A stretch of 64,000 nucleotides of DNA, taken from positions 3,983,001 through 4,047,000 of the forward strand of contig NZ_LT607413.1 of assembly GCF_900091495.1 (NCBI RefSeq), written 5' to 3'. The stretch comes from Micromonospora echinospora. Lineage in GTDB: Bacteria; Actinomycetota; Actinomycetes; Mycobacteriales; Micromonosporaceae. A model generated the notes under the pieces. The model searched no databases, was not told where the DNA came from, and worked only from the letters and a program-made list of their open reading frames with translations. Of the stretch, positions 9,006 to 43,531 are shown in pieces (within the stretch, counting starts at the first letter, position 1; the number at the start of each line of letters is the position of its first letter). The position numbers and the translations under genes are program-made.

Positions 9006-9016
9006 GCGCCGTGGGG

Positions 9017-9075: not shown

Positions 9076-9086
9076 AGGCGGACGGC

Positions 9087-9638: not shown

Positions 9639-9737
9639 TCCGCCGCTCACCTCCTCCCGGTCGGCCCGGCCCGGTGGTCCGCGCCGGCCGGCGCGGCCGA
9701 CGCGGGCCGGTCACGCCCTCCAGCCTGGTGGCGCTTC

Positions 9738-9756
9738 GGGTGAGGCCGGGTCACCC
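9738..9756. promoter_or_regulatory. GGGTGA-N7-TCACCC dyad upstream of the DsbA-like gene
   Basis: An exact 6-bp inverted repeat with a ggccggg spacer, overlapping the stop codon of the BON gene. It matches the dyad at 10559 in arms and spacing. Confidence 0.45.
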
Positions 9757-10440: not shown

Positions 10441-10558
10441 CGGAAGGCTCCTCCCTGCCGGTGGCGTCCTCGCCCGTCGGCCCACGACGCCGCCGGTGGC
10501 GGCCCGCGATGCTGCCGGTGGCGTCCTCGCCTGTCGGCCGCGATGCTGCCCGAGGGAA

Positions 10559-10577
10559 GGGTGAACCACCCTCACCC
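10559..10577. promoter_or_regulatory. GGGTGA-N7-TCACCC dyad in the BON/membrane-protein divergent region
   Basis: An exact inverted repeat with an accaccc spacer. It lies 119 bp before the BON start and 107 bp before the divergent membrane-protein start. The adjoining 10447-10556 stretch holds direct copies of a ccggtggcg(tcctcgcc) motif. Confidence 0.45.
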
Positions 10578-10683
10578 GGACCGGAGGAGGCGGTGCCGGG
10601 CCGGATGGGACGGGCGTGACAGCCGGGCTGCGGTACGGCACGATCTGGATCGATCGAGTCACAGTCGGCGACGAGGGCGGGCG

Positions 10684-12528
10684 ATGAGCACCGAACGGGA
10701 GACGGCCCCCATTCCGGCCCGCGTCCGGGACCGGGTCGGTTGGGCGCTGTGGCGGCTGGCCCGGCACGAGTGGACCCTCGTGGTGCTCGGCTCGTTGCTG
10801 CTGGCGGCGGCGCTGACCTGGCCGACGCTGCGGGACCTGACCGGGACGATCCCCCAGGACAGCGGCGACCCGACCCTCCAGGCCTGGCAGATCGCCTGGG
10901 GTGGGCACGCCCTGCTGACCGACCCGGCCAACCTCTGGCACTCGAACACCTTCCACCCCGAGCCGTACACCTACGCCTACTCCGACACCCTGCTCGGGTA
11001 CGCCCCGTTCGGCATGGTCGGGGACGGCCCGGTGGCCGCGGTGGTCCGCTACAACCTGCTCTACGTGCTGGTGCACGCCCTGGCGTTCGTCGGGGCGTAC
11101 GCGTTGGCCCGGCAGTTGGGGGCGGGGCGGGCCGGGTCGGCGGTGGCCGGGGCGGCGTTCGCGTACGCCCCGTGGAAGCTCGCCCAGGCCGGTCACCTGC
11201 ACGTGCTCTCCGTGGGCGGGATCGCGCTGTCGCTGGCCATGCTGGCCCGGGGGCACGGCTGGTCGCTGCGGCACGGATACCGCCCGGAACGGGTCCGTCC
11301 CGGCTGGGCGGCGGCCGGGTGGCTGGTCGCCGCCTGGCAGATCAGCCTGGGCTTCGGCATCGGCCTGCCCTTCGCGTACGTGCTGGCGCTGGTCTGCCTG
11401 GTCGCGGCGGCCGGTTACGCCTGGACCTGGTGGCGGCGGGGCCGGCGACCGTTCCCGCGTGGCCTGCTCCTGGCCGACCTGGCCGGTGGGGTGTTCTTCG
11501 CCGGGGTGGCCCTGCTGATGGCCGCCCCCTACTTCGAGGTGGTGGAACGTCACCCGGAGGGGCGACGCACGGTCGAACACATCGAGATGTTCTCCCCGCC
11601 GCTGCGCGGTTTCCTGATCGCCCCGCCCGAGAGTTGGCTCTGGGGTGAGCGGCACGCGGCCGCCCGGGAGACCCTCGGCTTCCCCAACGAGATGACCCTG
11701 CTGCCCGGGGTGGTGCTGCTCGGACTGGCCTTCTCCGGGCTCTTCCTCTCCGCCTGGCGGCTGCGGCACCGGCTGCTGCTGCTGGCCGGGGTGCTGGCCA
11801 GCGGGGCGTTGGCCGCCGGCACCGTGTTCCTCGGCGACGGGGATCCGGGCTACGTCACCCTGGTCGAGCACGCGCCGGGTTGGGACGGCATCCGGACCCC
11901 CGGCCGGTTGGTGCTCTGGACCACCCTGCTGCTCGGCATCCTGGCCGCCGGGGCGCTCACCCGCGAACCGTCGGGTCGGGCCGCGCCGGAGGAACCGGCG
12001 GAGCCGACCAGCCGGGCCGAACCGGCGGAGCCGACCGGAGGAGACGTGCCCGCCGAGCCGGCCGAGCCCGGTGCGCGTACCAGCGGGCGCTTCGCCCGCT
12101 GGGGGCGGCTGGTGCTGGTCGTACCGCTGGCGCTGGTGCTGGCGGAAGGGGTGAACCGGACTCCGCACGTGCCGGCGCCGGAGCAGCCGGCGGCGCTGCG
12201 CGGGGTGGACGGGCCGTTGCTGGTGCTACCCAGCGACGGTATCCGCGAGCTGCACGTGATGCTCTGGTCGACCGACGGGTTTCCCCGGATGGTCAACGGC
12301 CTGGCCTCGTTCACCCCGGCGAGCCAGGCCGAGATCCGTGCGGCCAGCCTCAGCTTCCCGGACGCGAGCTCGGTCACGTACCTCCGGCAGCGGGGCATCC
12401 GGACGGTGGTCGTGCTGCCCGGGTACGCGGTGGGAACTCCGTGGCAGGACGTGGCGGACCGGCCGGTGGACGTACCGGGTGTCCGGCGGGTGCAGGTCGG
12501 CGACGGGTTCGTGTACCACCTGGGGTGA
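10684..12528 (+). CDS. polytopic membrane protein, GT-C glycosyltransferase-like
   Basis: A 614-residue membrane protein. One hydrophobic helix near residues 33-53 precedes a long extracytoplasmic loop (NLWHSNTFHPEPYTYAYSD). About eight to ten further helices follow, then an Ala/Pro/Glu-rich linker (repeated AEPAEPT, about 435-470), one more helix, and a soluble C-terminal domain (LLVLPSDGIRELHVML; VVVLPGYAVGTPW). The loop after the first helix and the overall shape resemble PMT/GT39-type and other GT-C lipid-linked sugar transferases, but I cannot place it in a named family. ATG at 10684 follows GAGGGCGGGC. It is divergent from the BON gene; whether it belongs to the stress block is unclear. 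Confidence 0.8.
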   Translation: MSTERETAPIPARVRDRVGWALWRLARHEWTLVVLGSLLLAAALTWPTLRDLTGTIPQDSGDPTLQAWQIAWGGHALLTDPANLWHSNTFHPEPYTYAYSDTLLGYAPFGMVGDGPVAAVVRYNLLYVLVHALAFVGAYALARQLGAGRAGSAVAGAAFAYAPWKLAQAGHLHVLSVGGIALSLAMLARGHGWSLRHGYRPERVRPGWAAAGWLVAAWQISLGFGIGLPFAYVLALVCLVAAAGYAWTWWRRGRRPFPRGLLLADLAGGVFFAGVALLMAAPYFEVVERHPEGRRTVEHIEMFSPPLRGFLIAPPESWLWGERHAAARETLGFPNEMTLLPGVVLLGLAFSGLFLSAWRLRHRLLLLAGVLASGALAAGTVFLGDGDPGYVTLVEHAPGWDGIRTPGRLVLWTTLLLGILAAGALTREPSGRAAPEEPAEPTSRAEPAEPTGGDVPAEPAEPGARTSGRFARWGRLVLVVPLALVLAEGVNRTPHVPAPEQPAALRGVDGPLLVLPSDGIRELHVMLWSTDGFPRMVNGLASFTPASQAEIRAASLSFPDASSVTYLRQRGIRTVVVLPGYAVGTPWQDVADRPVDVPGVRRVQVGDGFVYHLG

Positions 12529-30605: not shown

Positions 30606-33305
30606 TCAGCGCACGCTGACCTGGTACGCCCGGGCGGCGTCGCCGGATTCGAAGGCGGCCAGCAGCGAGCCGGCCTTCCCGCCCGCGACCGGCACCGTGA
30701 TGGTCACCGAGCGGCCGGCGGTCAGCTCGACCGTCTTCTCGCCGAGCGCCCTGTGACCGTCCCAGGTGTACAGGTAGGCCGTGCCGGTCCGGTCGGCGCG
30801 CAGGGTGACCCGCACCCCGTCCCCGGTGATCCGCTGGTCGGCGAGGCGCAGCGCCCGCTCGGGGAGCTTCGCCACGGCGGCCGGGGCCACCCCGTCCACC
30901 GCGGACTGCGCGATGGTCTGCGGGCTGTGCACGCTCCGGGCGGCGGTGTCCGGGAAGATCGGCTTGCTCGGCTCCCGGTTGGCGGGGGTGTAGCCGGGCA
31001 GGGTCACCAGGCCGTAGCGGTACGGGTCGGCCCGCACACCGGTGAAGGTGGACCAGCCGAGCCGGGACTGCGAGCTGAGGTCCTGGGTGTCCGAGTCGTA
31101 CACCAGCACGTTGAAGCCCATCCGGGTCGGGTCGACCGCGTCCGGCAGCACCGAGAACGGGATACTCGCCTCGATGGTGTAGCCGGTGTAGGGCTCGCTG
31201 ACCTTGCTGACCACGGTCATCCCCGGCGCGGTCTCGGCGCCCGGACCCTGCCGGTTGTCGGCGTCGCGCTGCCAGCACGGCGGGTTGCCGTTGGCCGGGT
31301 CGTCGGTGATCGGGAAGATGCCCGCCTTGAACACCGTGGAGGTGTCCGAGGAGTCGCCCTTCGGGTCGACGATGATCTCCACGCTGTCGGTACGCCGCTG
31401 CCGCTTGCAGTCCTGCGGGACGACCTTCTTGCCGAGCACGTCGTCGGTGACCTGCACGATCACCTTCAGCGCGTCCTCGGTCCAGGCGATCCGGCCCTTG
31501 GCCGAGGCGTCCTGCGGAGTGACCGACTGGCCCTCCCAGATCCGGGAGAAGTCCAGCTCCTCGCCGGGGTACTCGCCCGGCCCGGCCTCGCCGTCGACGG
31601 CGTGGTCGTGGCCGGCGTGCGGGACCTCGCTGGTCGGCACGATCTCCAGCGCGCCGGCCTCCACGTTGGTGCCGGACTGGCTGGTGGTGGTGATGGTGAT
31701 GGCGTAGTCGCCGTTGACGCCGCCCTCGTTGGCCGTCGGCAGCGACGGGTCGCTGTTGGTCACGGTGAAGGTGACCGAGCCGGTCGCCCCGGCGGCCAGG
31801 CTGGTGTAGTTCTTCGTCGCCGAGTCGGCGGTGAAGCCGGCCGGCAGACCGAGGGTGACGCTGCCGCTCTGCGCGGTCGAGCCGTGGTTGCGCAGGTCGA
31901 CGCGGACCTCGCGGCTCTTGCCGGAGCCGAGGGTGAGCACCGGCTTGATCAGGGTGTCGAGCTGCGGGTAGCCCTCCGCGCCGGCCCAGTCGCGGAAGAT
32001 GCCGACCTCGGGCAGCGGCTCCAGGGTGCCCCGGACGTCGGCGACGACCCGGACGGCCCGGTCGGTGCGGCCGGTGCCCTGGCCGGTGGCGAGGGTGGCG
32101 CCGAGCAGCGACTGCTGGTTGGTGGCGGCGTCGGCCGGCACGGTGACGGTGAAGGTGGCGGTCCGCTCCTTGCCCGGCGCGACCGCGCCACGCAGCGCGC
32201 CGGAGCCCTTGGCGGTCCAGCCGTCGGGCAGCCGTAGGGAGACCGTGGGTGTGGTCAGGGCCCGCTTGGCGGCCCGCACGTGCGCGGTGACCTCGACGGT
32301 CTGACCGGGGGTGAGGTCGAACCGGTCGGCGGTCAGGTAGAACTCGGTGTCCTCGGGAAGGGCGCCGTTGGCGGCGGGCAGCACCGAGCCGCGCAGGATC
32401 GCCTCGGGGGAGGTGTCCGCCGGGTCGTACGGCACCCGGCTGTCGACCAGGGTGTAGAAGTCGCAGCGGACCTGCGCCGGGTCGGTCGGGGCGGCGGCGG
32501 TGTTCGCCCAGCCCTGGGTGACGTAGTCGCGGCGGGCGTCCACCTCGATCTCGCCCCAGGTCTTACCGGACGCGCTCCGGGTGCCCTCCCAGACGCCGAA
32601 GACCTGGTCGGTGGGGACGGTCGGCCGGAACGTGGTGGCACAGGCCGGACCGGCCGAGGAGCTGCCGGTGCCGCCGGTACGCAGGAACTTCGCCGCCCGG
32701 AAGGGCTTGAGCCCCTCCTTGCTGATCTGCTCGGGGAAGGCCTTCGGGTCGGCGGCGGCATGGAACGCCTCGGCGGCGAAGCGGGCCGCCTGCTGGTGGT
32801 TGCCGTGGTTGCCGGGCGTCGGCGACGGGTTCATCGTCATGACGATCTCGGGCCGGGTCGTCCGGATCACCCGGACGATCTGGGCGAGGGTGTCGTCGTG
32901 GCCCCAGATCTGCTCGGACAGGGGAGCGGACGCGGTGTACCAGAAGTCGACCCGGTCCAGGTTGTAGAGGTTCTCCACCCCGGCGCGGCCGATGGCGGTG
33001 CGCTCCTCGCCTTCCCGGATGATGCCCAGCGGGGGGCCCTCCTCCAGGCCGACGGCGTTGCCGCCGCCCTCGCCACGGGTGATGGTGATGACGCCGGAGC
33101 GGACGCCGTGCTTCTCCTTCCACTGGCCGAGGGTGGCGAGGCTGCTGGCCTCGTCGTCGGGGTGGGCGCTGACGAAGAGCACGTCCAGGTCGACCGCGTC
33201 GGACGGCTTGCCGCCGGCGGTGTCGGCGGGGGCGGCGAAGGCGGCGGGTGCCCCGGACAGGGCCAGGGCGAGCGCGGTGGGTAACAGGAACGCCTTGAAT
33301 CGCAT
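30606..33305 (-). CDS. secreted multidomain PIG-L family deacetylase
   Basis: An 899-residue exported protein, far larger than the roughly 250-residue PIG-L core. Signal peptide residues 1-25 (MRFKAFLLPTALALALSGAP, ending AFAAPA). The PIG-L/LmbE domain (about 40-300) has the metal and catalytic motif AHPDDE (47-52) and the second His motif GNHGNHQQA. NEW3/Big-like beta domains follow (SREVRVDLRNHGSTAQSGSV). A CBM9-like domain (about 620-790; LDFSRIWEGQSVTPQDASAKG, TDSVEIIVDPKGD) probably binds carbohydrate, and a last beta domain ends YQVSVR. PIG-L enzymes deacetylate N-acetylglucosamine-type substrates. ATG 33305 follows GGAAGG. It is divergent from the ROK regulator; inclusion in that regulon is inferred. 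Confidence 0.9.
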   Translation of the reverse strand: MRFKAFLLPTALALALSGAPAAFAAPADTAGGKPSDAVDLDVLFVSAHPDDEASSLATLGQWKEKHGVRSGVITITRGEGGGNAVGLEEGPPLGIIREGEERTAIGRAGVENLYNLDRVDFWYTASAPLSEQIWGHDDTLAQIVRVIRTTRPEIVMTMNPSPTPGNHGNHQQAARFAAEAFHAAADPKAFPEQISKEGLKPFRAAKFLRTGGTGSSSAGPACATTFRPTVPTDQVFGVWEGTRSASGKTWGEIEVDARRDYVTQGWANTAAAPTDPAQVRCDFYTLVDSRVPYDPADTSPEAILRGSVLPAANGALPEDTEFYLTADRFDLTPGQTVEVTAHVRAAKRALTTPTVSLRLPDGWTAKGSGALRGAVAPGKERTATFTVTVPADAATNQQSLLGATLATGQGTGRTDRAVRVVADVRGTLEPLPEVGIFRDWAGAEGYPQLDTLIKPVLTLGSGKSREVRVDLRNHGSTAQSGSVTLGLPAGFTADSATKNYTSLAAGATGSVTFTVTNSDPSLPTANEGGVNGDYAITITTTSQSGTNVEAGALEIVPTSEVPHAGHDHAVDGEAGPGEYPGEELDFSRIWEGQSVTPQDASAKGRIAWTEDALKVIVQVTDDVLGKKVVPQDCKRQRRTDSVEIIVDPKGDSSDTSTVFKAGIFPITDDPANGNPPCWQRDADNRQGPGAETAPGMTVVSKVSEPYTGYTIEASIPFSVLPDAVDPTRMGFNVLVYDSDTQDLSSQSRLGWSTFTGVRADPYRYGLVTLPGYTPANREPSKPIFPDTAARSVHSPQTIAQSAVDGVAPAAVAKLPERALRLADQRITGDGVRVTLRADRTGTAYLYTWDGHRALGEKTVELTAGRSVTITVPVAGGKAGSLLAAFESGDAARAYQVSVR

Positions 33306-33721
33306 GCAGATCCTTCCGCTGAGCGCGGTGTCCGGGCAGCGACGGGCGGCGTCGGGCGCACGACGGCGTCGACGCTCGGTCGCGTTCGGACGGCTGATGG
33401 GGGACGGCCGGCGCGAGGCGCGGCAGGGCACCGGGCACCGGGGTACGCAGCGGTACGGGCATCCGTACACACTGGAAGGCCTTCGCCGGTGACGCTAGGG
33501 ACCGGTGCACCGGCGCGTCAATCCTTTGCAAGGTCTTTCTTTGTTTGTGGAAGAAATAAAGTCACCTTGTGGGGGCCATGATCACCCGGCGCATTCGGCG
33601 CGGTCGCGCTCGGTCAGCGCCCCGGCGGTGGCGTGTTTTGCCAGCTAGTCAAGGTTCCTCTCGGGCTTCCGAGATGGTTTCGTGACTTGACTCGTTAATT
33701 CGTTCGCCGTAGGAAGGAAGT
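33306..33721. other. 416-nt divergent control region of the ROK cluster
   Basis: No gene. It holds an AT-rich segment (33523-33565) with the inverted repeat TTTCTT-N9-AAGAAA at 33536-33556, and a second loose pair AGTCAAG (33647) / CTTGACT (33685). A possible promoter for the ROK regulator is TTGACT at 33687-33692, spacer 18, TAGGAA near 33711. Confidence 0.5.
33536..33556. promoter_or_regulatory. TTTCTT-N9-AAGAAA inverted repeat, candidate ROK operator
   Basis: A perfect 6-bp inverted repeat in the most AT-rich part of the divergent region, 231 bp before the PIG-L start and 166-175 bp before the ROK regulator. Operator role inferred from position and symmetry. Confidence 0.4.
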
Positions 33722-34885
33722 GTGACTGACGTGGTGACGCCACCGACGAGCCCGGTGAGCCGGGAGCGGGCGAAGGAGATCAAGCGGCTTTCCGTGATCT
33801 CCACCGCCCGCCAGGTGCGGGTGCTCTCCCGCGCCGAGCTGACCGAGCTCACCGGGCTGAGTCCGGCCACGCTCACCCCGCTGGTCCGTGAACTGATCGC
33901 CGAGGGCTACCTCATCGAGCGCGGGCCCGGGACGTCCCGGACCGGCCGCCCTCGGGCGATGCTGGAGTTCAACCCCCGCGCCGAGCTGGTGGCCGCGGTC
34001 TCGCTGGAGCCGTCCCGCCTGAGCTGCGAAATCGCCGACAGCGACGGCACGGTTGTCGCCCACCGCACGGTCCGGCTCGCCAGCGACATCGTCGACACCG
34101 TCTGCCGGTCCGTGCCCGAGCTGGCCGGCGACGGCCTGCCCGCGCTGCGCGGGGTGGCCATCGCCGCCCCCGGGGTCTCCTCCGGCGGGGCGGTCCGGCT
34201 CGCCCCCTCGGTCGGCCTGGTCGAGGGGCTCCCGATAGGGGAGTCGGTGCAGCAGCGGCTCGGCGTGCCGGTGGTGGTGGACAACGACGTCAACCTGATG
34301 GCGGCCGGCGAGCACGCCTGCGGGGCCGGCAGCGACGTGGCCGACCTGCTGCTGCTGCACGTCGCCGACGGCATCGGCGCCGGCCTGGTGCTCGACGGGC
34401 AGGTCCGCCGGGGCTCCGGCGGCGCGGCCGGGGAGGTCGGTTTCCTGCCGCTGGACCCGACCGACCAGGGACACGACGGCATCGGCCCGTTCGAGGCCCG
34501 CTGGTCGGAGAACGCCATCGCCGAGCGGATGGTCGCCCTGGCCCCCGGTCGTCGGCCGGACGCCCCGGTCGCCGCCCTGGTCGAGCTGGCCGGTGCCGAC
34601 GAGCGGGCCGCCGCCTACCTGGACGAGGTGCTCAGCGCCTGGTCCCGGCTGATCGTCTCCTGTGTCTGCGTCGTCGACCCGGGCCGGGTGCTGCTCAGCG
34701 GGGCCGCCGCCCAGCTCGACGACGCGGCCGTCAACCGACTCCAGAGGCTGGTCGCCGCCGCGGTGCCCAGCCCGACCGAGGTCCGCCGCGCGGTCCTCGG
34801 TGACCGGGCCGTGCTGCACGGCGCGGTCAGCTACGCGCTCTCCGCAGCCGCCGCCGGCCTGCCCCACCTGCTTCCCACACCCTGA
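33722..34885 (+). CDS. ROK-family transcriptional regulator
   Basis: About 387 residues. A winged helix-turn-helix (about 25-75; RAELTELTGLSPATLTPLVRELIAEG) is fused to a ROK ATPase-fold domain with VVVDNDVNLMAAGEHACGAG and GSGGAAGEVGFLPL. The kinase phosphate loop is degenerate (AVSLEPSRLSCEI) and the Cys-rich zinc motif is missing, as expected for a sugar-sensing repressor rather than a kinase. GTG 33722 sits only 1-2 nt from AGGAAGGAA; GTG 33731 or 33734 are better spaced and may be the true start. It heads the transporter/catabolic operon and is divergent from the PIG-L gene, so it is the likely regulator of both. Confidence 0.9.
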   Translation: MTDVVTPPTSPVSRERAKEIKRLSVISTARQVRVLSRAELTELTGLSPATLTPLVRELIAEGYLIERGPGTSRTGRPRAMLEFNPRAELVAAVSLEPSRLSCEIADSDGTVVAHRTVRLASDIVDTVCRSVPELAGDGLPALRGVAIAAPGVSSGGAVRLAPSVGLVEGLPIGESVQQRLGVPVVVDNDVNLMAAGEHACGAGSDVADLLLLHVADGIGAGLVLDGQVRRGSGGAAGEVGFLPLDPTDQGHDGIGPFEARWSENAIAERMVALAPGRRPDAPVAALVELAGADERAAAYLDEVLSAWSRLIVSCVCVVDPGRVLLSGAAAQLDDAAVNRLQRLVAAAVPSPTEVRRAVLGDRAVLHGAVSYALSAAAAGLPHLLPTP

Positions 34886-34921
34886 CCACGCAGTTCCCCA
34901 TCACCCCCTCGGAGGTACCCC

Positions 34922-35974
34922 ATGAGACGTCGCCTTCTCCTCGCCGGGGCGCTCGCCACCGTGCTCGCCGCCGGCACCGCGTGCGGTGGCGGCGGTGGCG
35001 GTGACGACGCGGCCGGCGGCACGACCGTCGAGAAGCTGACCATCTACACGGCCCGTGACAAGAAGGTCTCCGACTACGTGGTGGAGCAGTTCACCGCCAA
35101 GTACCCGGAGTACAAGGGCAAGGTCGAGATCCTCAACCTGGGCGCGCAGGAGATCCTGGAGCGGGTCCGGGCGGAGAAGGCCAACCCGCAGGCCGACGTC
35201 TGGTGGGGTGGCACCCAGCAGGGTCTCTCCGCGGGCGCGTCCGAGGACCTGCTCGCTCCCATCCAGCCGAACTTCGCCGGCAAGATGGACGCCAAGTACA
35301 AGGACGCCGAGGGCCGCTGGTTCGGGGAGATCCTGCTGCCCGAGGTCATCATGTACAACAACAAGGCGCTCACCCCGGAGCAGGCCCCGAAGGACTGGGA
35401 CGACCTGCTCAAGCCGGAGTGGAAAGACAAGATCATCATCCGGGACGTGGCCGCCTCCGGCACCATGCGGTCGATCTACTCCGCGATGATCGTGCGGCAG
35501 TCGCCCGACGGCAGCAACCCGCAGCCCGGCTACGACTGGCTCAAGAAGCTCGACGCCAACACCGGCGCGTACGCCGCCAACCCGACCGACCTGTACCTGA
35601 AGCTCTCCCGGCAGCAGGGCACGCTCAGCGCCTGGAACCTCCAGGACGTCCTGCTCCAGGCCAACCAGTCCAACATGCCCTTCGGGTACGTGATGCCGGC
35701 CTCCGGTGCCCCGGTGCTGGTCGACGGCCTCGCCGCGGTCAAGGGCGGCACCACCGAGGGCGCGCAGAAGTTCCTCGAGTTCCTCTTCGACGACAAGCTC
35801 CGCGGTGAGCTCGCCAAGGAGTACTTCCAGATCCCGGCAGTGGAGATCGCCGAGCAGCCGGAGTGGCTGGCCAACCTCGACCTCAAGCCGCTCGACGTCG
35901 ACTGGGACGTGATCGGCAAGAACGAGACCGAGTGGATCAACCACTGGAACAGCCAGATCAAGAACAAGGGCTGA
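34922..35974 (+). CDS. ABC transporter solute-binding lipoprotein (FbpA/AfuA-type)
   Basis: A 350-residue extracellular solute-binding protein. A short signal ends in a lipobox before Cys (LAAGTAC, residue 21) and a Gly-rich tether. The mature domain (VEKLTIYTARDKKVSDYVVEQF; ADVWWGGTQQG; MPFGYVMPASGAPVLVDGLA) belongs to the class that binds ferric iron, 2-aminoethylphosphonate or, in AfuA, hexose phosphates. I do not see the paired tyrosines of iron-binding FbpA near the C-terminus (the segment there is YFQIPAVEI). Iron is therefore less likely than a small organic, perhaps phosphorylated or amine-bearing, ligand. ATG follows GGAGG. A hairpin separates it from the ATPase gene. Confidence 0.92.
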   Translation: MRRRLLLAGALATVLAAGTACGGGGGGDDAAGGTTVEKLTIYTARDKKVSDYVVEQFTAKYPEYKGKVEILNLGAQEILERVRAEKANPQADVWWGGTQQGLSAGASEDLLAPIQPNFAGKMDAKYKDAEGRWFGEILLPEVIMYNNKALTPEQAPKDWDDLLKPEWKDKIIIRDVAASGTMRSIYSAMIVRQSPDGSNPQPGYDWLKKLDANTGAYAANPTDLYLKLSRQQGTLSAWNLQDVLLQANQSNMPFGYVMPASGAPVLVDGLAAVKGGTTEGAQKFLEFLFDDKLRGELAKEYFQIPAVEIAEQPEWLANLDLKPLDVDWDVIGKNETEWINHWNSQIKNKG

Positions 35975-35982
35975 CCGCGCGG

Positions 35983-36013
35983 ACGCCGGACCGGGGCCGA
36001 CCCGGTCCGGCGT
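35983..36013 (+). terminator. intercistronic hairpin after the binding-protein gene
   Basis: A 13-bp perfect stem (35983-35995 with 36001-36013) and loop gccga. In binding-protein operons such hairpins commonly stabilise the upstream message or cut readthrough, giving excess binding protein over transporter. Confidence 0.6.
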
Positions 36014-36071
36014 ACCCGCCCGTCAGTGGTGCGTCCGATCAGGCGGCGTACCGCACGAAGGAGAGGGCCTC

Positions 36072-37145
36072 ATGATCGATGTCACGCTGGAGTCGGTGAG
36101 CAAGCGCTTCGCGCGCGGTGGCGACACCGCGGCCGTGGACGACGTCGACATCACCATCGCCGCCGGGGAGTTCTTCACCCTGCTCGGCCCGAGCGGCTGC
36201 GGCAAGACCACCACCCTGCGCATGGTGGCCGGGTTCTACTTCCCCACCTCCGGGCGGATCCGCTTCGGCGCCGAGGACGTCACCCGCCGGCCGCCGAACA
36301 AGCGCGACACCGGCATGGTCTTCCAGAACTACGCGCTCTTCCCGCACATGAGCGTGGCGCAGAACGTCGCCTACGGACTCAAGATCCGCAAGGTCAACCG
36401 GGCCGAGTCGCGCCGCCGGGTCGAGGAGGCGCTCGCCGAGGTGCACCTCGGCGGCTACGGCGAGCGGCGCATCGACGAGCTCTCCGGCGGCCAGCAGCAG
36501 CGGGTCGCCCTGGCCCGCGCCCTGGTGATCCGGCCGCGCACCCTGCTGCTCGACGAGCCGCTGTCGAACCTCGACGCCAAGCTGCGTGAGGAGACCCGGA
36601 CCGAGATCCGCCGGATCCAGCAGGAGGCCGGCACCACCGCCATCTACGTCACCCACGACCAGGCCGAGGCGATGGCCATGTCGGACCGGATCGCGGTCAT
36701 GCAGTCCGGCCGGGTGCAGCAGATCGGCGCGCCGCAGGAGATCTACCACCAGCCGGCCAACGCGTTCGTGGCCCGCTTCATCGGCCGCAGCAACGTCCTC
36801 GACCTGCCCGTGGTCGACGCGACCGAGCGGAGCGTCACGGTCCGGCTGCCCGGCGGCGGCGAGGTCGCCGTCGGCGCGCCCGCCGGGCACGGCCGCAAGG
36901 CCGGCGAGAACGCCCTGGTCTCGGTGCGTCCCGAGCACATCGCTCTGACCGCGACCACCGACCCGGGCGCGCTGCCCGGCCGGATCACCGAGGTGGAGTT
37001 CACCGGCATGGCCACCAACCTCGTGGTCGACGTGGCCGGCGAGTCGGTCCAGGTGGCCGCCGTGGACGTGCCGGCCGGCATCGCCGTCGGCGACCAGGTC
37101 GGCCTGCGCCCCAACCGGGAGCGGATGTGGGTGGTCCGTCCGTGA
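36072..37145 (+). CDS. ABC transporter ATP-binding protein (FbpC/PotA-type)
   Basis: A 357-residue ATPase. Walker A GPSGCGKTT (about residues 39-47), Q-loop FQNYALFPHMSV, signature LSGGQQQRVALARAL, Walker B LLLDEPLSNLDAKL and switch His in YVTHDQAEAM. The C-terminal TOBE region runs from about residue 240 to 355 (GRSNVLDLPV; VSVRPEHIAL). It drives the importer formed with the adjacent double permease. ATG 36072 has AAGGAGAGG upstream. Its TGA overlaps the permease GTG (GTGA), so subunits are made in step. Confidence 0.95.
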   Translation: MIDVTLESVSKRFARGGDTAAVDDVDITIAAGEFFTLLGPSGCGKTTTLRMVAGFYFPTSGRIRFGAEDVTRRPPNKRDTGMVFQNYALFPHMSVAQNVAYGLKIRKVNRAESRRRVEEALAEVHLGGYGERRIDELSGGQQQRVALARALVIRPRTLLLDEPLSNLDAKLREETRTEIRRIQQEAGTTAIYVTHDQAEAMAMSDRIAVMQSGRVQQIGAPQEIYHQPANAFVARFIGRSNVLDLPVVDATERSVTVRLPGGGEVAVGAPAGHGRKAGENALVSVRPEHIALTATTDPGALPGRITEVEFTGMATNLVVDVAGESVQVAAVDVPAGIAVGDQVGLRPNRERMWVVRP

Positions 37146-38935
37146 GCACCATCCCCGCCACCCCGAGCGCGGCCACCGTCCCGCCGGTCACCGAGGACCC
37201 GACGCCGCCGCGCGCCCCGCGCCGCCGGCTCGCCGACCGCTTCGGCGGTGGCTCCGGCTCGCGCTGGTTCCCGTACGTGCTGGTCTTCCCGCTCGCCCTG
37301 ATCCTCTTCGGGTACGTCGTCCAGCCGATGTTCGCCACCTTCGCCGAGAGCGTCGGCGTGGACGGGGTGGAGAACTACACCGCCTTCCTCAGCGGCGAGG
37401 GGGTGGCCCGCTCCGCCCTGCTCACCTCGCTGCTCATCTCCGCGGCCAGTGTGCTGCTCTGCGGCGTCGTCGGCGTGGCGATGGCCTTCCTGCTCAAGCG
37501 CTTCCAGTTCCCCGGGCGCGGGCTGATCGAGGCGATCATCCTGGTGCCGGCGGCGCTGCCGCCGCTGATCGGGGCGATCTCGTTCCAGCTGCTCTACAGC
37601 GAGACCGGCATCCTGCCGCGTGGCCTCCAGCAGCTCTTCGGCGCGGAGAACCCGGTGCTGCCGTTCAGCGGCATCGCCGGGGTGCTGGTGGTGCACACCT
37701 TCACCATGTACCCGTACTTCTACCTGGCCACCTCGGCCGCGCTGACCGGGATGGACCCGTCGGTGGAGGAGGCGGCGTACAACCTGGGGGCCGGTCGGGT
37801 CCGGGTCTGGCGCACCGTGCTGCTGCCGATGCTCACCCCGGCGCTGGTCTCCGCCTCGCTGCTGGTCTTCATGACCTCGCTGGCGTCGTACACCGCCCCG
37901 CTGCTGTTCGGGGTGGACCGCACGATGACCATGCAGATCTACATCAACCGCACCAACGGCGACCTGCCGATGGCGTCCACGTACGCCTCGGTGCTCGGCG
38001 TGGTCTCGGTGCTCTTCCTGCTCGGCATGCGCTGGTACGAGGGGCGGCGCAGCTACCGCTCCCAGTCCAAGGGCGTGGCCAGCCACCGGCGGGAGATCAC
38101 CAACCCGTTCGGGCGCTGGGCGGCGCTGGTCGCCTCGCTGCTGGCCACCGCCGTGCTGCTCGCGCCGGTGGCGACCATCGCCCTGGTGGCGTTCTCCGAG
38201 GACGGCTCCTGGACCACCGAGGTCATCCCGGCCGCCTACACCTGGCAGAACTTCGTCACGATCTTCTCCGACCCGGACGCGTTCCAGCCGATCCTGAACT
38301 CGCTCCAGATGAGCCTGCTCGCCACCGCCGGCTGCATCGTGGTCGGCGTGCTCATCGCCTACGCGGTACGCCGGCTGGACTTCCGCGGCCGGGGCCTGCT
38401 GGACGTGGCGGTCATGCTGGCCTGGGCGCTGCCCGGCACGGTGGTCGCGATCAACCTGATCTCGGCGTTCAGCACCGGCAACGCGTTCAGCTTCGGGCAG
38501 GTGCTGATCGGCACCTTCTGGATCATGCCACTGGCGTACTTCGTCCGGTTCCTGCCGCTGGTGTTCCGCTCCAGCTCGGCCACCCTGGCCCAGATCGACC
38601 CGTCGCTGGAGGAGGCCGCCCGGAACCTGGGGGCGTCCTGGTGGCGGGCGTTCGGGTCGGTGACCCTGCGGCTGATGCTCCCCGGCGTGCTGGCCGGCGC
38701 GCTGCTCGCCTTCGTGCACGGTGTCGGTGAGTTCGTCGCCTCGGTGCTGATCTACACCTCGGACACCGCGCCGATCTCGGTGGAGATCAACAACCGGATG
38801 TACTCGTTCGAGGTCGGCACCGCCGCCGCGTACGGCATGCTCCAGGTCGTGCTGATCTTCGTGGTGATGGTGCTCTCCGGTCGCCTGGAAGGCGGCCGGC
38901 GGTCCAGCCGGGAGGCGGCGAAGTGGACGGCCTGA
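37142..38935 (+). CDS. ABC transporter double permease (FbpB-type fusion)
   Basis: A 597-residue protein with two fused BPD_transp_1 permease units and about 12 membrane helices. Each unit has an EAA loop that docks the ATPase: DPSVEEAAYNLGAGRVRVWRTVLLP (about residue 205) and DPSLEEAARNLGASWWRAFGSVTL (about 485). One chain thus forms the whole channel, as in FbpB/AfuB. GTG 37142 is coupled to the ATPase stop. The stop of this gene overlaps the start of the creatininase-family gene by 13 nt. Together with the binding protein it makes a complete importer for the operon's unknown substrate. Confidence 0.94.
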   Translation: MSTIPATPSAATVPPVTEDPTPPRAPRRRLADRFGGGSGSRWFPYVLVFPLALILFGYVVQPMFATFAESVGVDGVENYTAFLSGEGVARSALLTSLLISAASVLLCGVVGVAMAFLLKRFQFPGRGLIEAIILVPAALPPLIGAISFQLLYSETGILPRGLQQLFGAENPVLPFSGIAGVLVVHTFTMYPYFYLATSAALTGMDPSVEEAAYNLGAGRVRVWRTVLLPMLTPALVSASLLVFMTSLASYTAPLLFGVDRTMTMQIYINRTNGDLPMASTYASVLGVVSVLFLLGMRWYEGRRSYRSQSKGVASHRREITNPFGRWAALVASLLATAVLLAPVATIALVAFSEDGSWTTEVIPAAYTWQNFVTIFSDPDAFQPILNSLQMSLLATAGCIVVGVLIAYAVRRLDFRGRGLLDVAVMLAWALPGTVVAINLISAFSTGNAFSFGQVLIGTFWIMPLAYFVRFLPLVFRSSSATLAQIDPSLEEAARNLGASWWRAFGSVTLRLMLPGVLAGALLAFVHGVGEFVASVLIYTSDTAPISVEINNRMYSFEVGTAAAYGMLQVVLIFVVMVLSGRLEGGRRSSREAAKWTA

Positions 38936-40026
38936 CCGCGTGGCCGGCCGGGGGCGGCCTGATCCCCGCCACCCGGATCCCCGGCGGTGAACTGGCGGCG
39001 GTCGCCGCCGCGGCCGACTTCGCGGTGCTGCCGGTCGGCGCGGTCGAGTGGCACGGCCCGCACCTGCCGCTCGGCACCGACCTGATCCTCGCCGAGGGCT
39101 TCGCCCGGGAGAGCGCGTCGGACGCGCCGGCCGGCGGAAGCGCGTCGGACGCGCCGGCCGGCGGAAGCGCGTCGGACGCGCCGAGGGGCGAAAGCGCGTC
39201 GGGTGCTCCGGCGGGCGAAAGCGCGGCGGGTACGCCGGCCGACGGGGGCGCGCCGGGTGACGGCCTGCCGGCCGGCGGGAACGCCGCCGAGGGGCCCGGT
39301 CCGCGCGGGGTGCTCTTCCCCGCCGTGCCGTACGCGGCCTGCCCCGGGCAGACCCGCCCCTGGCCGGGCACCGTGGCGATCCGTCCGGAGATCGCCGTCG
39401 GCTACCTCGCCGACGTGATCGAGGGGATCGTGGCGGCCGGCTTTCCCCGGCTGCTGATCGTCAACGGGCACGACGCCAACATGTCGACCGTCCGGGCCGC
39501 GATGGAGTGGGTCTCCGGTCGGCGCACCGCCAGCCTGCTGCTGGTCAACTGGTTCCAACTGGTCACCCCGGAGGAGACCGCCGCGCTGTACGGTCCGCTG
39601 CCGGCGCGTGGGCACGGCGGGGCGTACGAGACCTCCGGCGTGCTCGGCTTCGACCCGGACGCGGTCCGCCTCGGCGCGGTCGACGACCTGCCGCCGAAGC
39701 CCAAACTGCCGGTGCCGCACCCGTACGTGCTGGTCGAGTCCCGGCCCGACCCGTGGCAGGGCTGGTCCGGGCACATCTCGCTGGCCGACGAGACGATCGG
39801 GCGGCGGGTCCGGGAACTGGCCGGCGGGCGGCTGCGCGAGCTGGTCGCCACCTGGGTGGCCGCCGAACCCCCGGCCGCCCCCACCGCCGACCCGCTGCCC
39901 GAGCCGGCTCCGGCTGGTGCGCGGCCGGACGGCACCCCGGCCGACGTGCCCGCCGCCGGCTCCCGGCCCGGCGCGGCCCCCGCCGCTGTCTCCCGGCCGG
40001 ATCCATCCTCCGGGGAGGACTCGTGA
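38923..40026 (+). CDS. creatininase-family metal amidohydrolase with an internal repeat insertion
   Basis: A 367-residue protein; the family usually has about 240-270. Metal-ligand motifs are intact: VGAVEWHGPHLPLGTD (about residues 40-55), IVNGHDANMS and GHGGAYETSGVLGF. Family members hydrolyse creatinine or N-formyl amides in cofactor pathways. Between the first motif and the LFPAVPYAACPG strand lies a roughly 60-residue insertion built from five 9-residue units (SASDAPAGG type). The last 55 residues are Ala/Pro-rich. GTG 38923 has GGGAGG 7 nt upstream and overlaps the permease gene; its own TGA overlaps the next GTG. The insertion should loop out; activity seems preserved. Confidence 0.9.
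   Translation: MDGLTAWPAGGGLIPATRIPGGELAAVAAAADFAVLPVGAVEWHGPHLPLGTDLILAEGFARESASDAPAGGSASDAPAGGSASDAPRGESASGAPAGESAAGTPADGGAPGDGLPAGGNAAEGPGPRGVLFPAVPYAACPGQTRPWPGTVAIRPEIAVGYLADVIEGIVAAGFPRLLIVNGHDANMSTVRAAMEWVSGRRTASLLLVNWFQLVTPEETAALYGPLPARGHGGAYETSGVLGFDPDAVRLGAVDDLPPKPKLPVPHPYVLVESRPDPWQGWSGHISLADETIGRRVRELAGGRLRELVATWVAAEPPAAPTADPLPEPAPAGARPDGTPADVPAAGSRPGAAPAAVSRPDPSSGEDS
39112..39246. repeat. 27-bp tandem repeat, five copies, in the creatininase-family gene
   Basis: Units start at 39112, 39139, 39166, 39193 and 39220. The first two are identical and divergence grows toward the fifth. Period 27 keeps the reading frame (nine residues per unit). Confidence 0.92.
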
Positions 40027-40976
40027 CCGTCGACCGGGGACTCGACATCGTCGACTTCCACCTGCACTTCCGGATCGGCGCGGACGAGACGATCCGGTCC
40101 TGCGAGCACGCCGCCGGCATGCACCCGGGCGGGGAGCACGAGCGGGCCGTCCGCGCCGCCGGCTCCGCCCCGTACGCGACGCGGTGGCGGCAGGCGTGGG
40201 GCTTCCCCGACCCCGAACCCCCAGCCGAGCGCTGGCAGGACGAGGCGGACCGGTGGGCCGACGAGCTGCGGGCGGTGAACGTCCGGCGGGCGGTCTTCGT
40301 CACCGGCGGCGGCAACGACACCGTCGCCGACGTGGTCGACCGGCATTCCGACCTGCTGCTCGGTTTCGCCCACCACGACCCGTACGCCCCGGGGGCCGCC
40401 GCCGAACTGGAACGCGCGGTGGTCGAACGCGGCCTGCGCGGGCTGAAGCTCTTCGCCCCGCTGCTACGCGGCCCCCTCGACGACGAGGCCCTCGACCCGC
40501 TCTGGGGCACCGCCCAGCGGCTCGGCGTGCCGGTGCTCGTCCACATCGGGCACTACGGCAGCGCCGGTGGCCTCTCCCACGGCCGGTACGGCGGCCCGGA
40601 CGAGCTGGCCCGGATGGCCCGCCGCTTCCCGGAGCTGGCCGTGGTGGTGCCGCACTTCGGCGTCCAGCACGTCCAGGACCTCCTCTTCGCCGCGTGGGGC
40701 TGCCCGAACATCCACGTCGACACCTCCGGCTCCAACCAGTGGGTGCGCTGGATGCCGTACAAGCTGACCCTGGAGGACCTCTTCCGCCGCTGCTACGAGA
40801 CCATCGGCCCGCACCGGATCGTGTTCGGCAGCGACTCGTCGTGGTTCCCCCGGGGCTACGTCACCCGCTACCTCGACGACCAACTGCGGATCTGCCGGGA
40901 GCTGGGCCTACCCGAGGAACACCTGCGCGCCATCTTCGCCGGGAACGCCGAGCGGCTGCTCGGCCTCGGCGACTGA
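40023..40976 (+). CDS. amidohydrolase-2 family enzyme (ACMSD-like)
   Basis: A 317-residue TIM-barrel metal hydrolase or decarboxylase. Metal-binding motif DFHLHF (about residues 11-16), His in LVHIGHYG and VVPHFGVQH, and the catalytic Asp in IVFGSDSSWFP near the C-terminus are those of the aminocarboxymuconate-semialdehyde decarboxylase/amidohydrolase-2 group. The terminal AIFAGNAERLLGL is the usual family ending. GTG 40023 overlaps the creatininase-family stop by 4 nt. Its place between a creatininase-family enzyme and a lyase suggests it performs a middle step in opening or trimming the imported compound; the reaction is not predictable. Confidence 0.85.
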   Translation: MTVDRGLDIVDFHLHFRIGADETIRSCEHAAGMHPGGEHERAVRAAGSAPYATRWRQAWGFPDPEPPAERWQDEADRWADELRAVNVRRAVFVTGGGNDTVADVVDRHSDLLLGFAHHDPYAPGAAAELERAVVERGLRGLKLFAPLLRGPLDDEALDPLWGTAQRLGVPVLVHIGHYGSAGGLSHGRYGGPDELARMARRFPELAVVVPHFGVQHVQDLLFAAWGCPNIHVDTSGSNQWVRWMPYKLTLEDLFRRCYETIGPHRIVFGSDSSWFPRGYVTRYLDDQLRICRELGLPEEHLRAIFAGNAERLLGLGD

Positions 40977-41037
40977 CCGGCTGACGTCGGGCGCGTTGAC
41001 GCGACGCACCCGGCCTGGAAGGAAGTGGACACCCGTC

Positions 41038-42564
41038 ATGAGCACACCCCCGCTGACCACCTACCAGCGGCACCACCTGCGGCCCACGTACGACCACCAC
41101 GTCGGGTACCTGTTCCCGGCGATGGTGCGGGCCAGCCAGGCGCACGTGGTGATGCTGACCGAGCAGGGACTCGTCCCCGCCGACCGGGCCGCCCGTCTGC
41201 TGCGCGGCCTCGCCGAACTGCGCGCCGACGACACGCCCGCGCCGGAGTTCGACGGCACCTTCGAGGACACCTACTACCTGCTGGAGAAGCGGCTCGCCGA
41301 GGCGTGCGGCATCCCCGCGTCCGAACTGGACGTGCAGATGGCCCGTAGCCGCAACGACCTGGACGCCGGGGTGTTCCGGATGCTCCTGCGCGACCAGCTC
41401 GTGGGCGTGCTCGACCGGGTGCTCGCCACCGCCACCACCACTCTTGACGCCGCGCACCGGTACGCCGACGTGGTGATCACCGGCTACACCCACCGCCGGC
41501 CCGCCCAGCCCACCACCATCGGGCACGCCCTCGCCGGCTACGCCGAGGCGCTCGCCGGTGAGGCCGTCGCGTACGCCGACCTGATCGAGGCGCTCAACAC
41601 CTCGCCGCTGGGCTCCTGCGCGTTCGCCGGCACCGACCTGGACATCGCCCCCGCCCGGGTGGCCGAACTGCTCGGCTTCGGCGGCCTGGTCACCAACTCG
41701 TACGAGGCGGTGGCCGGGGCCGACCACCTGGTCCGGGTGGGCACCCTCAACGCGCAGGCCCTCGCCACCGGCGCCCGGCTGGCCCGCACCCTGATGGACT
41801 GGCTGAGCTGGCGCTGGGTGACCACCCCCGGCGACTTCACCCAGGGCAGCAGCATCATGCCGCAGAAGCGCAACCCGGTGGTGCTGGAACACCTGGTCTC
41901 GATGGCCGGGGCCACCGCCGCCGACGCCGCCAGCGTGCTCAACAACGTCGGCGCGGCCTGGTGGGAGGACTCCAACAACGCCACCACCGACGTGCAGGTG
42001 CGGCTCTGGGAGAGCAACGACCGCACCGACCGGTTCTTCGCGCTGCTCGGCGGCTTCCTCGCCGAGATCGAGCCGTTGGAGCCACCGTCGGCGGAGGAGA
42101 TCGTCGCCTCCGGAGCCACCACCACCGCCGCAGCCGACGCGCTGACCCGGCACGGGGTGCCGTTCCGCGCCGCCCACTCGGTGGTCGGTCGGCTGGTCCG
42201 GGGTGGCGCTCCGGGCACCTGGACCGTCGACGGGGTCCGCGCGGCGGCCGAGGGGATCGCCGACGGGCTCGACGACGCCGCGATCGACGACCTGATCGCC
42301 GCCGCCGTCCGTCCCGCGCAGGTCCTCGACCGGGCCCAGGTCGACGGCCCCGGCAGGGACGCGGTACGGGCCCAGGTGGCGACCCTCCGCGTCGCCTTCG
42401 ACGGCGTCGCCGGTCGGCTCGACGCGGTCCGGGACCGGCTGGCCCGGGCCGACGAGGCGCTGGACGCCGTCGCCGCCGAGCGGGCGGGGTTGGACGCCGC
42501 CGCCGCCGTGGCCGCCGAGCGGGCGGGGTTGGACGCCGTGGCCGCCGAGCGGGCGGCGCGGTGA
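41038..42564 (+). CDS. argininosuccinate lyase-like enzyme of the fumarase/aspartase superfamily
   Basis: A 508-residue protein. ARSRNDLDAGVFRMLLRDQL (HARSRND-like), YTHRRPAQPTTIGHAL (resembling YTHLQRAQPI of ArgH) and the signature GSSIMPQKRNPV put it nearest to argininosuccinate lyase. Location inside a transporter/amidohydrolase operon, away from arginine genes, argues for a different C-N bond cleavage. The C-terminal 35 residues are repeated AERAGLDAVA units absent from ArgH. ATG 41038 is about 12 nt from GGAAGGAAG; the preceding in-frame codons are not family-like. Elimination from an N-substituted amino acid is the expected chemistry. Confidence 0.85.
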   Translation: MSTPPLTTYQRHHLRPTYDHHVGYLFPAMVRASQAHVVMLTEQGLVPADRAARLLRGLAELRADDTPAPEFDGTFEDTYYLLEKRLAEACGIPASELDVQMARSRNDLDAGVFRMLLRDQLVGVLDRVLATATTTLDAAHRYADVVITGYTHRRPAQPTTIGHALAGYAEALAGEAVAYADLIEALNTSPLGSCAFAGTDLDIAPARVAELLGFGGLVTNSYEAVAGADHLVRVGTLNAQALATGARLARTLMDWLSWRWVTTPGDFTQGSSIMPQKRNPVVLEHLVSMAGATAADAASVLNNVGAAWWEDSNNATTDVQVRLWESNDRTDRFFALLGGFLAEIEPLEPPSAEEIVASGATTTAAADALTRHGVPFRAAHSVVGRLVRGGAPGTWTVDGVRAAAEGIADGLDDAAIDDLIAAAVRPAQVLDRAQVDGPGRDAVRAQVATLRVAFDGVAGRLDAVRDRLARADEALDAVAAERAGLDAAAAVAAERAGLDAVAAERAAR

Positions 42565-42601
42565 GCGTGCGTCCCGTCCTGTCGACCGGAGGGTGTGACC
42601 G

Positions 42602-43531
42602 GTGAGTGTTGGATTGTCCGGTCGAGCCGCCCAGCCCGCACCGGTGGCCGGTGACCGGCCGATGCTGCTCGGCATCGACTTCGGCGGCACCAAGATGGCC
42701 GTCGGGGTGGCCGACGGGCAGGGCCGGCTCCTGGTCCGCGAACGGGTCCCCACGCACGCCGAGCAGGGCGCGCCGCAGGCCCTGGACCGGGCGCTGGCGC
42801 TGGCCGCGAAACTGGTGGCGCAGGTCGGCGGCCCGGTCGCGGCGGCCGGCGTGGCCTCGCCCGGCGTGATCCGGCCCGACGGCATCGACCTGGCCCCGAA
42901 CGTGCCCGGCTGGGACCGGCTGCGGCTGGCCGACGCCGTCCGCGAGCGGTTCGGCGTGCCGGCGGTGGCGGTCGACAACGACCTGAACGCCGCCGCCCTG
43001 GCCGAACTGCGCCTCGGTGCGCTGCGCGACGTCGACCCCGGGCTGGTGGTCGGCATCGGCACCGGCGTCGCGGCGGCGGTCACCGTGGGCGGCCGGGTGG
43101 TCGGCGGCCACCGGGGCGCGGCCGGCGAGATCGGGTACGCGGTGGCCGGTGGCCCCTGGCCCGGCAGCATGCTGGAACTCAACTTCTCCGGCCGGGCGCT
43201 GGACCGGCTCGCCGACGAGCAGGGGGTGCTGGGTGGCGCGGCCGGGCTGGCCGCCGCCGCCGCGCGTCCCGGCCCGGCCCGGGAGGCGCTCACCGCCCGG
43301 GTCGACGAGTTCGCCCGTCACCTGGCCACCTGCTGCCTGCTGCTCGACCCGCAGCGGGTGGTGCTGGTCGGCGGGGTGGCCGGCAGCGACCTGATCCGGG
43401 GCCTGCTGACCGAGCGACTCGGCGCGGTGCTGCCGTACCGGCCGGAGGTGGTGCTTTCCCGGTTCGCCGACGACGCCGCCCTGCACGGCGCGGTGATCCT
43501 CGCCCGCGAGGCGGTGCCCGCGTCCCGCTGA
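42602..43531 (+). CDS. ROK-family sugar kinase-like protein lacking the zinc motif
   Basis: A 309-residue protein with the phosphate loop LLGIDFGGTKMAVGV, catalytic Asp region VAVDNDLNAAALAELRLGA, VGIGTGVAAAV, and GHRGAAGEIGYAV. After that motif, ROK kinases normally have the CxCGxxGCxE zinc cluster. Here the equivalent stretch is AGGPWPGSMLELNFSGRAL with no cysteines. This occurs in some divergent ROK kinases; activity on a sugar is likely but the substrate is open. GTG 42602 has GGAGGG upstream. It is the last gene of the operon, 37 nt after the lyase, and is followed by a MITE-like palindrome. Confidence 0.87.
   Translation: MSVGLSGRAAQPAPVAGDRPMLLGIDFGGTKMAVGVADGQGRLLVRERVPTHAEQGAPQALDRALALAAKLVAQVGGPVAAAGVASPGVIRPDGIDLAPNVPGWDRLRLADAVRERFGVPAVAVDNDLNAAALAELRLGALRDVDPGLVVGIGTGVAAAVTVGGRVVGGHRGAAGEIGYAVAGGPWPGSMLELNFSGRALDRLADEQGVLGGAAGLAAAAARPGPAREALTARVDEFARHLATCCLLLDPQRVVLVGGVAGSDLIRGLLTERLGAVLPYRPEVVLSRFADDAALHGAVILAREAVPASR

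Follow-up and report, generated by a model that had tools for sequence, protein, structure and literature searches.

What substrate would call for a gene cluster that joins a secreted deacylase and a solute importer to a relative of argininosuccinate lyase and a sugar kinase? The question is raised by positions 30606..43531 of the window, the 64,000-nucleotide stretch of Micromonospora echinospora DNA analyzed here (positions 3,983,001–4,047,000 of a 7.78-Mb single-contig genome; the closest related loci are those of Micromonospora). An earlier note on this DNA proposed that the cluster takes up and dismantles an amino- or amide-linked sugar, with a creatininase, an amidohydrolase-2 and the lyase as its defining trio. 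Our analysis bears out the ROK-controlled importer and its accompanying enzymes, sets the trio aside as the unit and narrows the likely products, through analogous clusters, to glucosamine and fumarate. The unit that recurs in other genomes consists of a ROK regulator, an importer, the lyase and a sugar kinase, often with a PIG-L deacylase. Our preferred reading, to which we assign a probability of roughly one half, is that these genes form a catabolic operon under local control whose substrate is an N-acylated glucosamine carrying a C4 dicarboxylate.

The cluster holds nine open reading frames (ORFs), in the order and of the families previously described, and all match named families above Pfam cut-offs. 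The PIG-L gene runs divergently from rokR, whereas rokR and the next seven genes are co-directional, with short gaps or overlaps between them. The overlapping junctions were confirmed by reading the sequence, as 4-base GTGA overlaps at 37142/37145 and 40023/40026 and a further overlap at 38923/38935. The features, with the evidence for each, are as follows.

30606..33305, minus strand: secreted PIG-L (LmbE-like) deacylase (Pfam, Deinococcus relative, motif alignment)
33536..33560, plus strand: operator-like palindrome TTTCTTTGTTTGTGGAAGAAATAAA, probable RokR operator (chance expectation, genome pattern scan)
33699..33721, plus strand: conserved element TTCGTTCGCCGTAGGAAGGAAGT, possible second RokR site (alignment of 10 upstream regions)
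33722..34885, plus strand: rokR, ROK-family transcriptional regulator (Pfam ROK, NagC/Mlc-like matches; 35/38 loci)
34922..35974, plus strand: solute-binding lipoprotein of the AfuA/PhnS2/iron-binding family (Pfam, PDB match, residue counts)
36072..37145, plus strand: ABC transporter ATPase with TOBE domain, PhnT2/PotA/UgpC-like (family profile matches)
37142..38935, plus strand: fused double permease (two BPD_transp_1 stretches; junction sequence)
38923..40026, plus strand: creatininase-family hydrolase, putative amidase (Pfam; metal-ligand conservation)
40023..40976, plus strand: amidohydrolase-2 metal hydrolase, putative deacylase (Pfam; conserved His/Asp)
41038..42564, plus strand: ArgH-superfamily lyase of a separate subfamily (Pfam, tree, alignments, fold model)
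42602..43531, plus strand: ROK sugar kinase, predicted glucosamine (or conjugate) kinase (Pfam; conserved residues)

A recurring regulator–importer–lyase–kinase unit

Scanning one actinobacterial genome per species yielded 39 loci, of which one (L042) was dropped because its neighbours make it look like a true ArgH, leaving 38 (L004–L041). The binding protein, ATPase, permease, creatininase and ROK kinase were found in 37 of these, the exception (L023) having lost them. The ROK regulator was present in 35, with all three misses at contig ends, and PIG-L in 29 (one a fragment), with four of the nine misses at contig ends. The amidohydrolase-2 gene was found in 20/38 loci, with a fragment in one more, and was missing in 17; loci without it include those of Jiangella, Dactylosporangium, Catellatospora, Georgenia and M. 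chalcea. In L080, a divergent locus from the window's family, the core of seven genes is complete (regulator, importer, creatininase, lyase and kinase), and PIG-L and amidohydrolase-2 are both lacking.

Among sampled whole genomes, the window's own included, the lyase occurred in 22 of the 150 that belong to the same family as the window and 10 of the 394 that share its class; it was also found in 7 of 249 genomes of a Saccharomonospora/Saccharopolyspora-type family (L129–L135). All seven of these loci carry, in a single orientation, rokR, a binding protein, the lyase, a PfkB kinase, an amidohydrolase-2 and a SIS protein; the ATPase and permease genes lie between the binding protein and the lyase. 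Their amidohydrolase-2 is a 56–58% homologue of the window's, and none of the seven gave a creatininase match. The regulator–importer–lyase–kinase core recurs in Jiangella, Georgenia and Saccharomonospora/Saccharopolyspora-type genomes. The proposed trio does not hold as the defining unit, given the 17 loci without amidohydrolase-2, the seven without a creatininase match and the lack of a creatininase among the gene annotations of the alphaproteobacterial and Deinococcus clusters that we opened, where these had been annotated.

A plasmid search with the window lyase returned six records at E ≤ 1e-30 (29.9–32.5% identity); five were opened, the sixth being a second record of the same Aminobacter strain. 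The Aminobacter and Rhizobium annotations show PIG-L, a ROK regulator, a sugar-binding protein, two sugar permeases, the lyase and an ATPase. Deinococcus actinosclerus has a ROK gene, the lyase, a secreted PIG-L (annotated as hypothetical and recognised by Pfam), an importer, a second PIG-L and a sugar kinase, and homology identified PIG-L, ROK, lyase and PfkB kinase genes in the unannotated Neorhizobium and Pseudorhodobacter records. A follow-on sample comprised 18 of the 27 listed alphaproteobacterial records (at least 52% identity), seven from Deinococcus (at least 55%) and four other ArgH-like loci; PIG-L lay nearby in 13/18, 4/7 and 0/4, respectively. The importer of these analogues is of the CUT1 sugar class, whereas the window's is AfuA-like, and the 14 alphaproteobacterial loci with a kinase have PfkB in 11 cases and ROK in three. 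Because transporter class and kinase both differ, the gene association survives the swapping of each. Two of the alphaproteobacterial loci (L100 and L103) have, in place of ROK, a substrate-binding-domain regulator that we read as LacI-like.

Two further observations concern individual loci. The cluster of Micromonospora sp. ATCC 39149 (L023) is decayed, its importer, creatininase and kinase gone, and there are no Ns in locus positions 8501–11500. In three alphaproteobacterial loci (L086, L091 and L114), the gene immediately past PIG-L encodes a DMT-family transporter, which could conceivably export a released amino acid.

A lyase subfamily set apart from ArgH

The lyase belongs to the fumarase/aspartase superfamily by its Lyase_1 match (PF00206, 113 bits against a cut-off of 27), its SSxMPxKxN loop and its fold; ASL_C2 also matches (35 bits). 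Its start is probably the ATG at 41038, not the listed TTG at 40996, because most aligned relatives begin there. Residues were counted over up to 56 aligned actinobacterial loci, some of which are the same genome fetched twice. On this basis, S118, R119, N120, K291, N293, V295 and D325 are found in every row covering them (K291 and N293 in 56/56), while S286 is Thr in four rows, T165 is Ala in one and S285 is gapped in one. The lyases of these clusters (module lyases) keep the fumarate-binding residues and have signature residues in common in the part of the active site that faces the leaving group. Since the fumarate side is conserved and the leaving-group side is changed, we predict the release of fumarate and glucosamine.

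Against the ArgH equivalog model TIGR00838, the window lyase scores 214.3 bits, below the cut-off of 279.5; an Aminobacter relative exceeds that cut-off at 307.2 bits, so the cut-off alone is not decisive. The KKNPD and AYNxDLQ loop of the ArgH rows read KRNPV and WEDSNN in the window lyase. In a tree, a 97/94 split separates the module lyases from ArgH, EDDS lyase and three other ArgH-like rows; the outgroup loci (L042, L046 and L048) look like true ArgH when their neighbours are judged by eye. The structural model ties with ArgH, delta-crystallin and EDDS lyase, and the fold therefore does not tell the substrate. This subfamily, whose members are routinely named argininosuccinate lyase, appears to be an amino-sugar catabolic enzyme.

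Past the conserved part of the lyase gene, a repeat with a 39-bp period occupies 42461–42556, in the C-terminal tail. Elsewhere, an ArgH-like lyase on plasmid pB of Cereibacter sphaeroides (L099) lies with an asparaginase, an amino-acid importer and a SIS protein, possibly a different sugar–asparagine route, and one in Rhizobium sp. RCAM05350 (L109) is annotated as two pieces.

Kinase, deaminase and a probable glucosamine product

The ROK kinase (PF00480, 125 bits) has N126-D127, with D127 the catalytic Asp, and E176-I177-x-Y179 in 55/55 aligned loci. A glucosamine-6-phosphate deaminase, NagB or NagB-II-like, is linked in ten of the clusters examined (L090, L092, L101 and L129–L135). In those of Paroceanicella and Loktanella, the encoded NagB exceeds its curated cut-off of 236.9 bits (scores of 242.1 and 250.9, respectively). 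For the SIS protein of the Roseomonas cluster the best family is NagB-II (313.4 bits, cut-off 430), as it is for the SIS proteins of L130 and L135 (202.5 and 187.9), with GlmS models next (185.4 and 159.7); homologues of the latter two proteins occur in all seven Saccharomonospora/Saccharopolyspora-type loci. NagB and NagB-II have different folds, so this one step has become linked with the lyase on more than one occasion. The leaving group is probably glucosamine. The window genome encodes a protein 55% identical over 346–347 residues to these SIS proteins of the L129–L135 type, elsewhere on the chromosome and unlinked.

Deacylase and putative amidases

The PIG-L protein matches its Pfam family at 74 bits and also carries NEW3 (two stretches) and a CBM9-like C-terminal domain; by alignment, the AHPDDE metal motif and third His are present, placing it among the LmbE-like/PIG-L enzymes. 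Its start is probably the ATG with first base 33305, which gives 899 amino acids (the ORF was listed from 33470), because this codon adjoins a conserved GGAAGGATC-type ribosome site and a signal-peptide-like stretch follows. A full-length relative from a Deinococcus cluster matches at 33.6% over 755 amino acids (E 5e-90). Secreted PIG-Ls from three Deinococcus loci align with the window's along most of the protein, and NEW3 and CBM9-like domains are present in the one that was scanned. D. deserti (L097) has a cytosolic PIG-L only; in D. actinosclerus, the cytosolic member of the PIG-L pair comes closest to MshB and Mca, scoring below both cut-offs. According to a 2014 review of LmbE-like enzymes, every known member has a substrate built on an N-acetyl- or N-acylglucosamine core (PMC4101496). 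If the window PIG-L acts on the glucosamine nitrogen, the dicarboxylate has to be attached at another position.

The creatininase-like enzyme falls within its superfamily (PF02633, 137 bits against a cut-off of 31) and below the TIGR04448 creatininase (creatinine amidohydrolase) cut-off (65.2 against 235 bits). E42, H44 and D53 are present in 37/37 aligned loci and H183, H231 and E236 in 55/55; E42, H44, D53, H183 and E236 are the positions that we take to be metal ligands. The amidohydrolase-2 enzyme (Amidohydro_2, 127 bits) retains H13, H15, H174 and H211 in 26 aligned rows and D271 in 27, one more row being gapped at H211. Because these two enzymes and cytosolic PIG-L alternate in presence, our guess is that the three are interchangeable intracellular amidases. 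Separately, the creatininase gene contains an in-frame tandem repeat at 39112–39256 (27-bp unit, 5.4 copies) encoding SASDAPAGG-like repeats, an insert that sits between two metal-ligand segments and is absent from three aligned orthologues.

Proposed pathway and points against it

In the route that we propose, the secreted PIG-L would trim an acyl group off the glucosamine nitrogen outside the cell, and the binding-protein importer would take up the remaining anionic conjugate. Inside, the creatininase-like enzyme and, in this lineage, the amidohydrolase-2 enzyme might strip remaining amide groups, which we suggest more tentatively. The ArgH-like lyase would eliminate the dicarboxylate as fumarate, freeing glucosamine, and the ROK kinase would make glucosamine-6-phosphate, possibly ahead of the lyase step. 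The deaminase, whose gene adjoins the cluster in other genomes and lies apart from it here, would then convert glucosamine-6-phosphate to fructose-6-phosphate and ammonia, feeding glycolysis. The literature that we searched covers the field in part, with most subscription journals outside it, and within it we found no such cluster, no account of this lyase subfamily or of the pathway it would serve and no bacillithiol breakdown for growth; the component families are known. To that extent, the view that the route matches no described pathway stands.

Our favoured candidate substrate, offered as a hypothesis, is glucosamine-malate, the known compound with this architecture that we can point to; it would be supplied as bacillithiol, or as fragments of it, set free by bacteria nearby. 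The malate in bacillithiol is O-linked. Bacillithiol is described as Cys-GlcN-malate, with glucosamine-malate as its core (PMC4360819), and bacillithiol and its derivatives as the low-molecular-weight thiols with the broadest distribution (PMC6282198). A complete bacillithiol-eating pathway would have PIG-L cut cysteine or acetate off the glucosamine nitrogen, the importer take up glucosamine-malate and a new ArgH-superfamily lyase cleave the glycosidic C–O bond to malate by elimination, yielding fumarate and glucosamine; we regard this as a tentative proposal, with the odds clearly against it. If true, Micromonospora, Saccharomonospora, Rhizobium and Rhodobacterales would scavenge a competitor's thiol and Deinococcus might recycle its own, and, were the bond C–O, a glycoside would be cleaved by elimination with an aspartase-fold enzyme. 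The bacillithiol literature within our partial coverage concerns making and using the thiol, not living on it. BshC has no match in the window genome, so that synthesis of bacillithiol there is improbable, a result that is silent on uptake.

Several findings weigh against the glucosamine–dicarboxylate reading. PIG-L is absent from 5 of the 34 actinobacterial loci uncut by a contig end, unmatched in all seven Saccharomonospora/Saccharopolyspora-type loci and missing from 5 of 18 alphaproteobacterial (L090, L092, L098, L100 and L103) and 3 of 7 Deinococcus loci (L093, L096 and L108); its absence across several groups implies that it is not essential to the route. Classical ROK sugar kinases are marked by GE-x-G-H and zinc cysteines, and the window kinase has GEIGY instead, with Cys 244 and 245 its only cysteines. 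The NagB-II-like proteins score below their family cut-off, and NagB has no match in the window genome. The lyase tree drew long-branch warnings. Four ArgH-like lyases (L094, L095, L099 and L109) sit in other contexts, with PIG-L in 0/4; they lie outside the module split, though L109 was left out of the tree. C–O elimination would be unusual for an ArgH relative. The window PIG-L scores below the BshB1 (40.2 against 182.5 bits), MshB and Mca cut-offs, and none of 17 aligned module PIG-Ls has Arg at the position of BshB Arg109, a residue reported as important for substrate binding; placed by its spacing to the third metal His, this position is Asn in the window PIG-L and T, Q, M, I or Asn in the remaining 16.

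Alternative substrates

N-linked aspartates remain the main rival. Here the substrate would be an N-(sugar)-aspartate (a Heyns/Amadori compound or a C1 glycosylamine), from which the lyase would release fumarate and an amino sugar by C–N cleavage. ArgH, PurB and EDDS lyase all cleave C–N bonds, and the linked deaminase suits an amino-sugar product. The nearest PDB sequences to the window lyase are those of EDDS lyase from Chelativorans sp. BNC1 (6g3d, 6g3e, 6g3h and 6g3i; variant 6rx8), for which PMC12363623 describes C–N cleavage. This substrate, however, would give PIG-L no role, as PIG-L works on N-acylglucosamine and not on a nitrogen already bearing a dicarboxylate. The three linked SIS proteins tested matched NagB-II first and GlmS next, with no deglycase family among the matches (the library's content for deglycases being unchecked). 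On balance we consider N-linked aspartates possible and rather unlikely.

The same proximity to EDDS lyase, together with an importer family that includes iron transporters, would fit scavenging of an aminopolycarboxylate metal chelator (EDDS- or opine-metallophore-like), with FbpA-type uptake and the lyase dismantling the chelate. However, the substrate-near D290 and Y320 of EDDS lyase align with V295 and D325, identical in 35/35 module lyases, and the ROK regulators, sugar kinases, CUT1-type importers and glucosamine-6-phosphate deaminases of the analogues would be out of place. Given these changed residues and the sugar-type gene context, we rejected EDDS-type chelator breakdown as very improbable.

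The importer itself suggests AfuABC-type uptake of hexose phosphate with accessory hydrolases, the lyase being incidental. Its Pfam matches are SBP_bac_6 (77 bits), ABC_tran (123) and, at two places in the single fused permease, BPD_transp_1 (109). The family closest to the binding protein is the AfuA/pyridoxal-phosphate family (best PDB match 6wce, a pyridoxal-phosphate-binding protein, E 1.4e-20), and the protein retains the SGT anion loop (S and G in 55/55 aligned loci, T in 53/55). Yet AfuA requires His205, Asp206 and Glu229, according to PMC4546632, and the equivalent positions, inferred from pairwise alignment to homologues, are Q241, D242 and S261 in 55/55 aligned loci. These residues suggest that the binding protein probably takes an anion other than a hexose phosphate. 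A kinase would, moreover, be superfluous for sugar phosphates. With the AfuA residues not all kept, and the lyase retained where the importer class changes, AfuA sugar-phosphate uptake was rejected, its likelihood being slighter still. Last, an ordinary arginine-pathway ArgH paralogue among chance neighbours, as the naming of relatives and the fold tie would allow, is scarcely credible and was rejected on the score below the cut-off, the Val in place of the KKNPD aspartate, the tree split and a gene context fixed across groups.

A regulator apparently dedicated to the cluster

The regulator matches Pfam ROK (104 bits), with NagC/Mlc-like matches also, and would control both directions from the palindrome at 33536..33560, for which 0.00 occurrences are expected by chance in the window. 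At up to three mismatches, this site is the sole match to the related pattern in the whole genome; the regulator therefore looks dedicated to this cluster, and the pattern names no further regulon genes. Of 50 upstream regions, 16, every one of them Micromonospora-type, have a comparable site at −164 to −189; in the remaining 34 the best operator match is elsewhere or weaker and the −187 site is not recognisable. The best operator-like match is at −29/−30 in 24 of the 50. The TTCGTTCGCCGTAGGAAGGAAGT element overlaps the rokR ribosome-binding site in the alignment of 10 upstream regions and is a possible second RokR site.

Between PIG-L and the operator, a strongly conserved block, GTACACACTGGAAGGCCTTCGC..GGTGACGCTAGGGA, occupies 33465–33501; its GAAGGCCTTCGC and GGTGACGCTA parts are retained in 10/10 aligned Micromonospora loci, and it has no Rfam match. 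Rfam models at gathering thresholds gave zero matches over 24000–50000, and a sigma-70 promoter scan found nothing.

Comparison with known systems

The window PIG-L shares with BshB, MshB and Mca the PIG-L domain, the metal motif and, as the family norm, N-acylglucosamine chemistry; unlike them, it is secreted, carries NEW3 and CBM9-like domains, scores below all three cut-offs and lacks an Arg109 equivalent. The lyase departs from EDDS lyase at the two substrate-near positions and in its sugar-type context, and EDDS lyase lies outside the module split (on a long branch). From ArgH and delta-crystallin it differs in its score below the ArgH cut-off, in lacking the KKNPD Asp and AYNxD loop and in having no adjoining arginine genes. 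The importer has the binding-protein family, fused permease and TOBE ATPase in common with AfuABC, P5PA and PhnSTUV, but the residues compared with AfuA are conserved at the SGT loop and at D242, the aspartate, and nowhere else. With N-acetylglucosamine/glucosamine operons (NagC, NagB, ROK kinases) the cluster shares a ROK regulator and a sugar kinase, and its analogues add NagB or NagB-II-like proteins; in contrast to those operons, the window cluster has no NagA and has a predicted fumarate-releasing lyase together with creatininase-like and amidohydrolase-2 enzymes.

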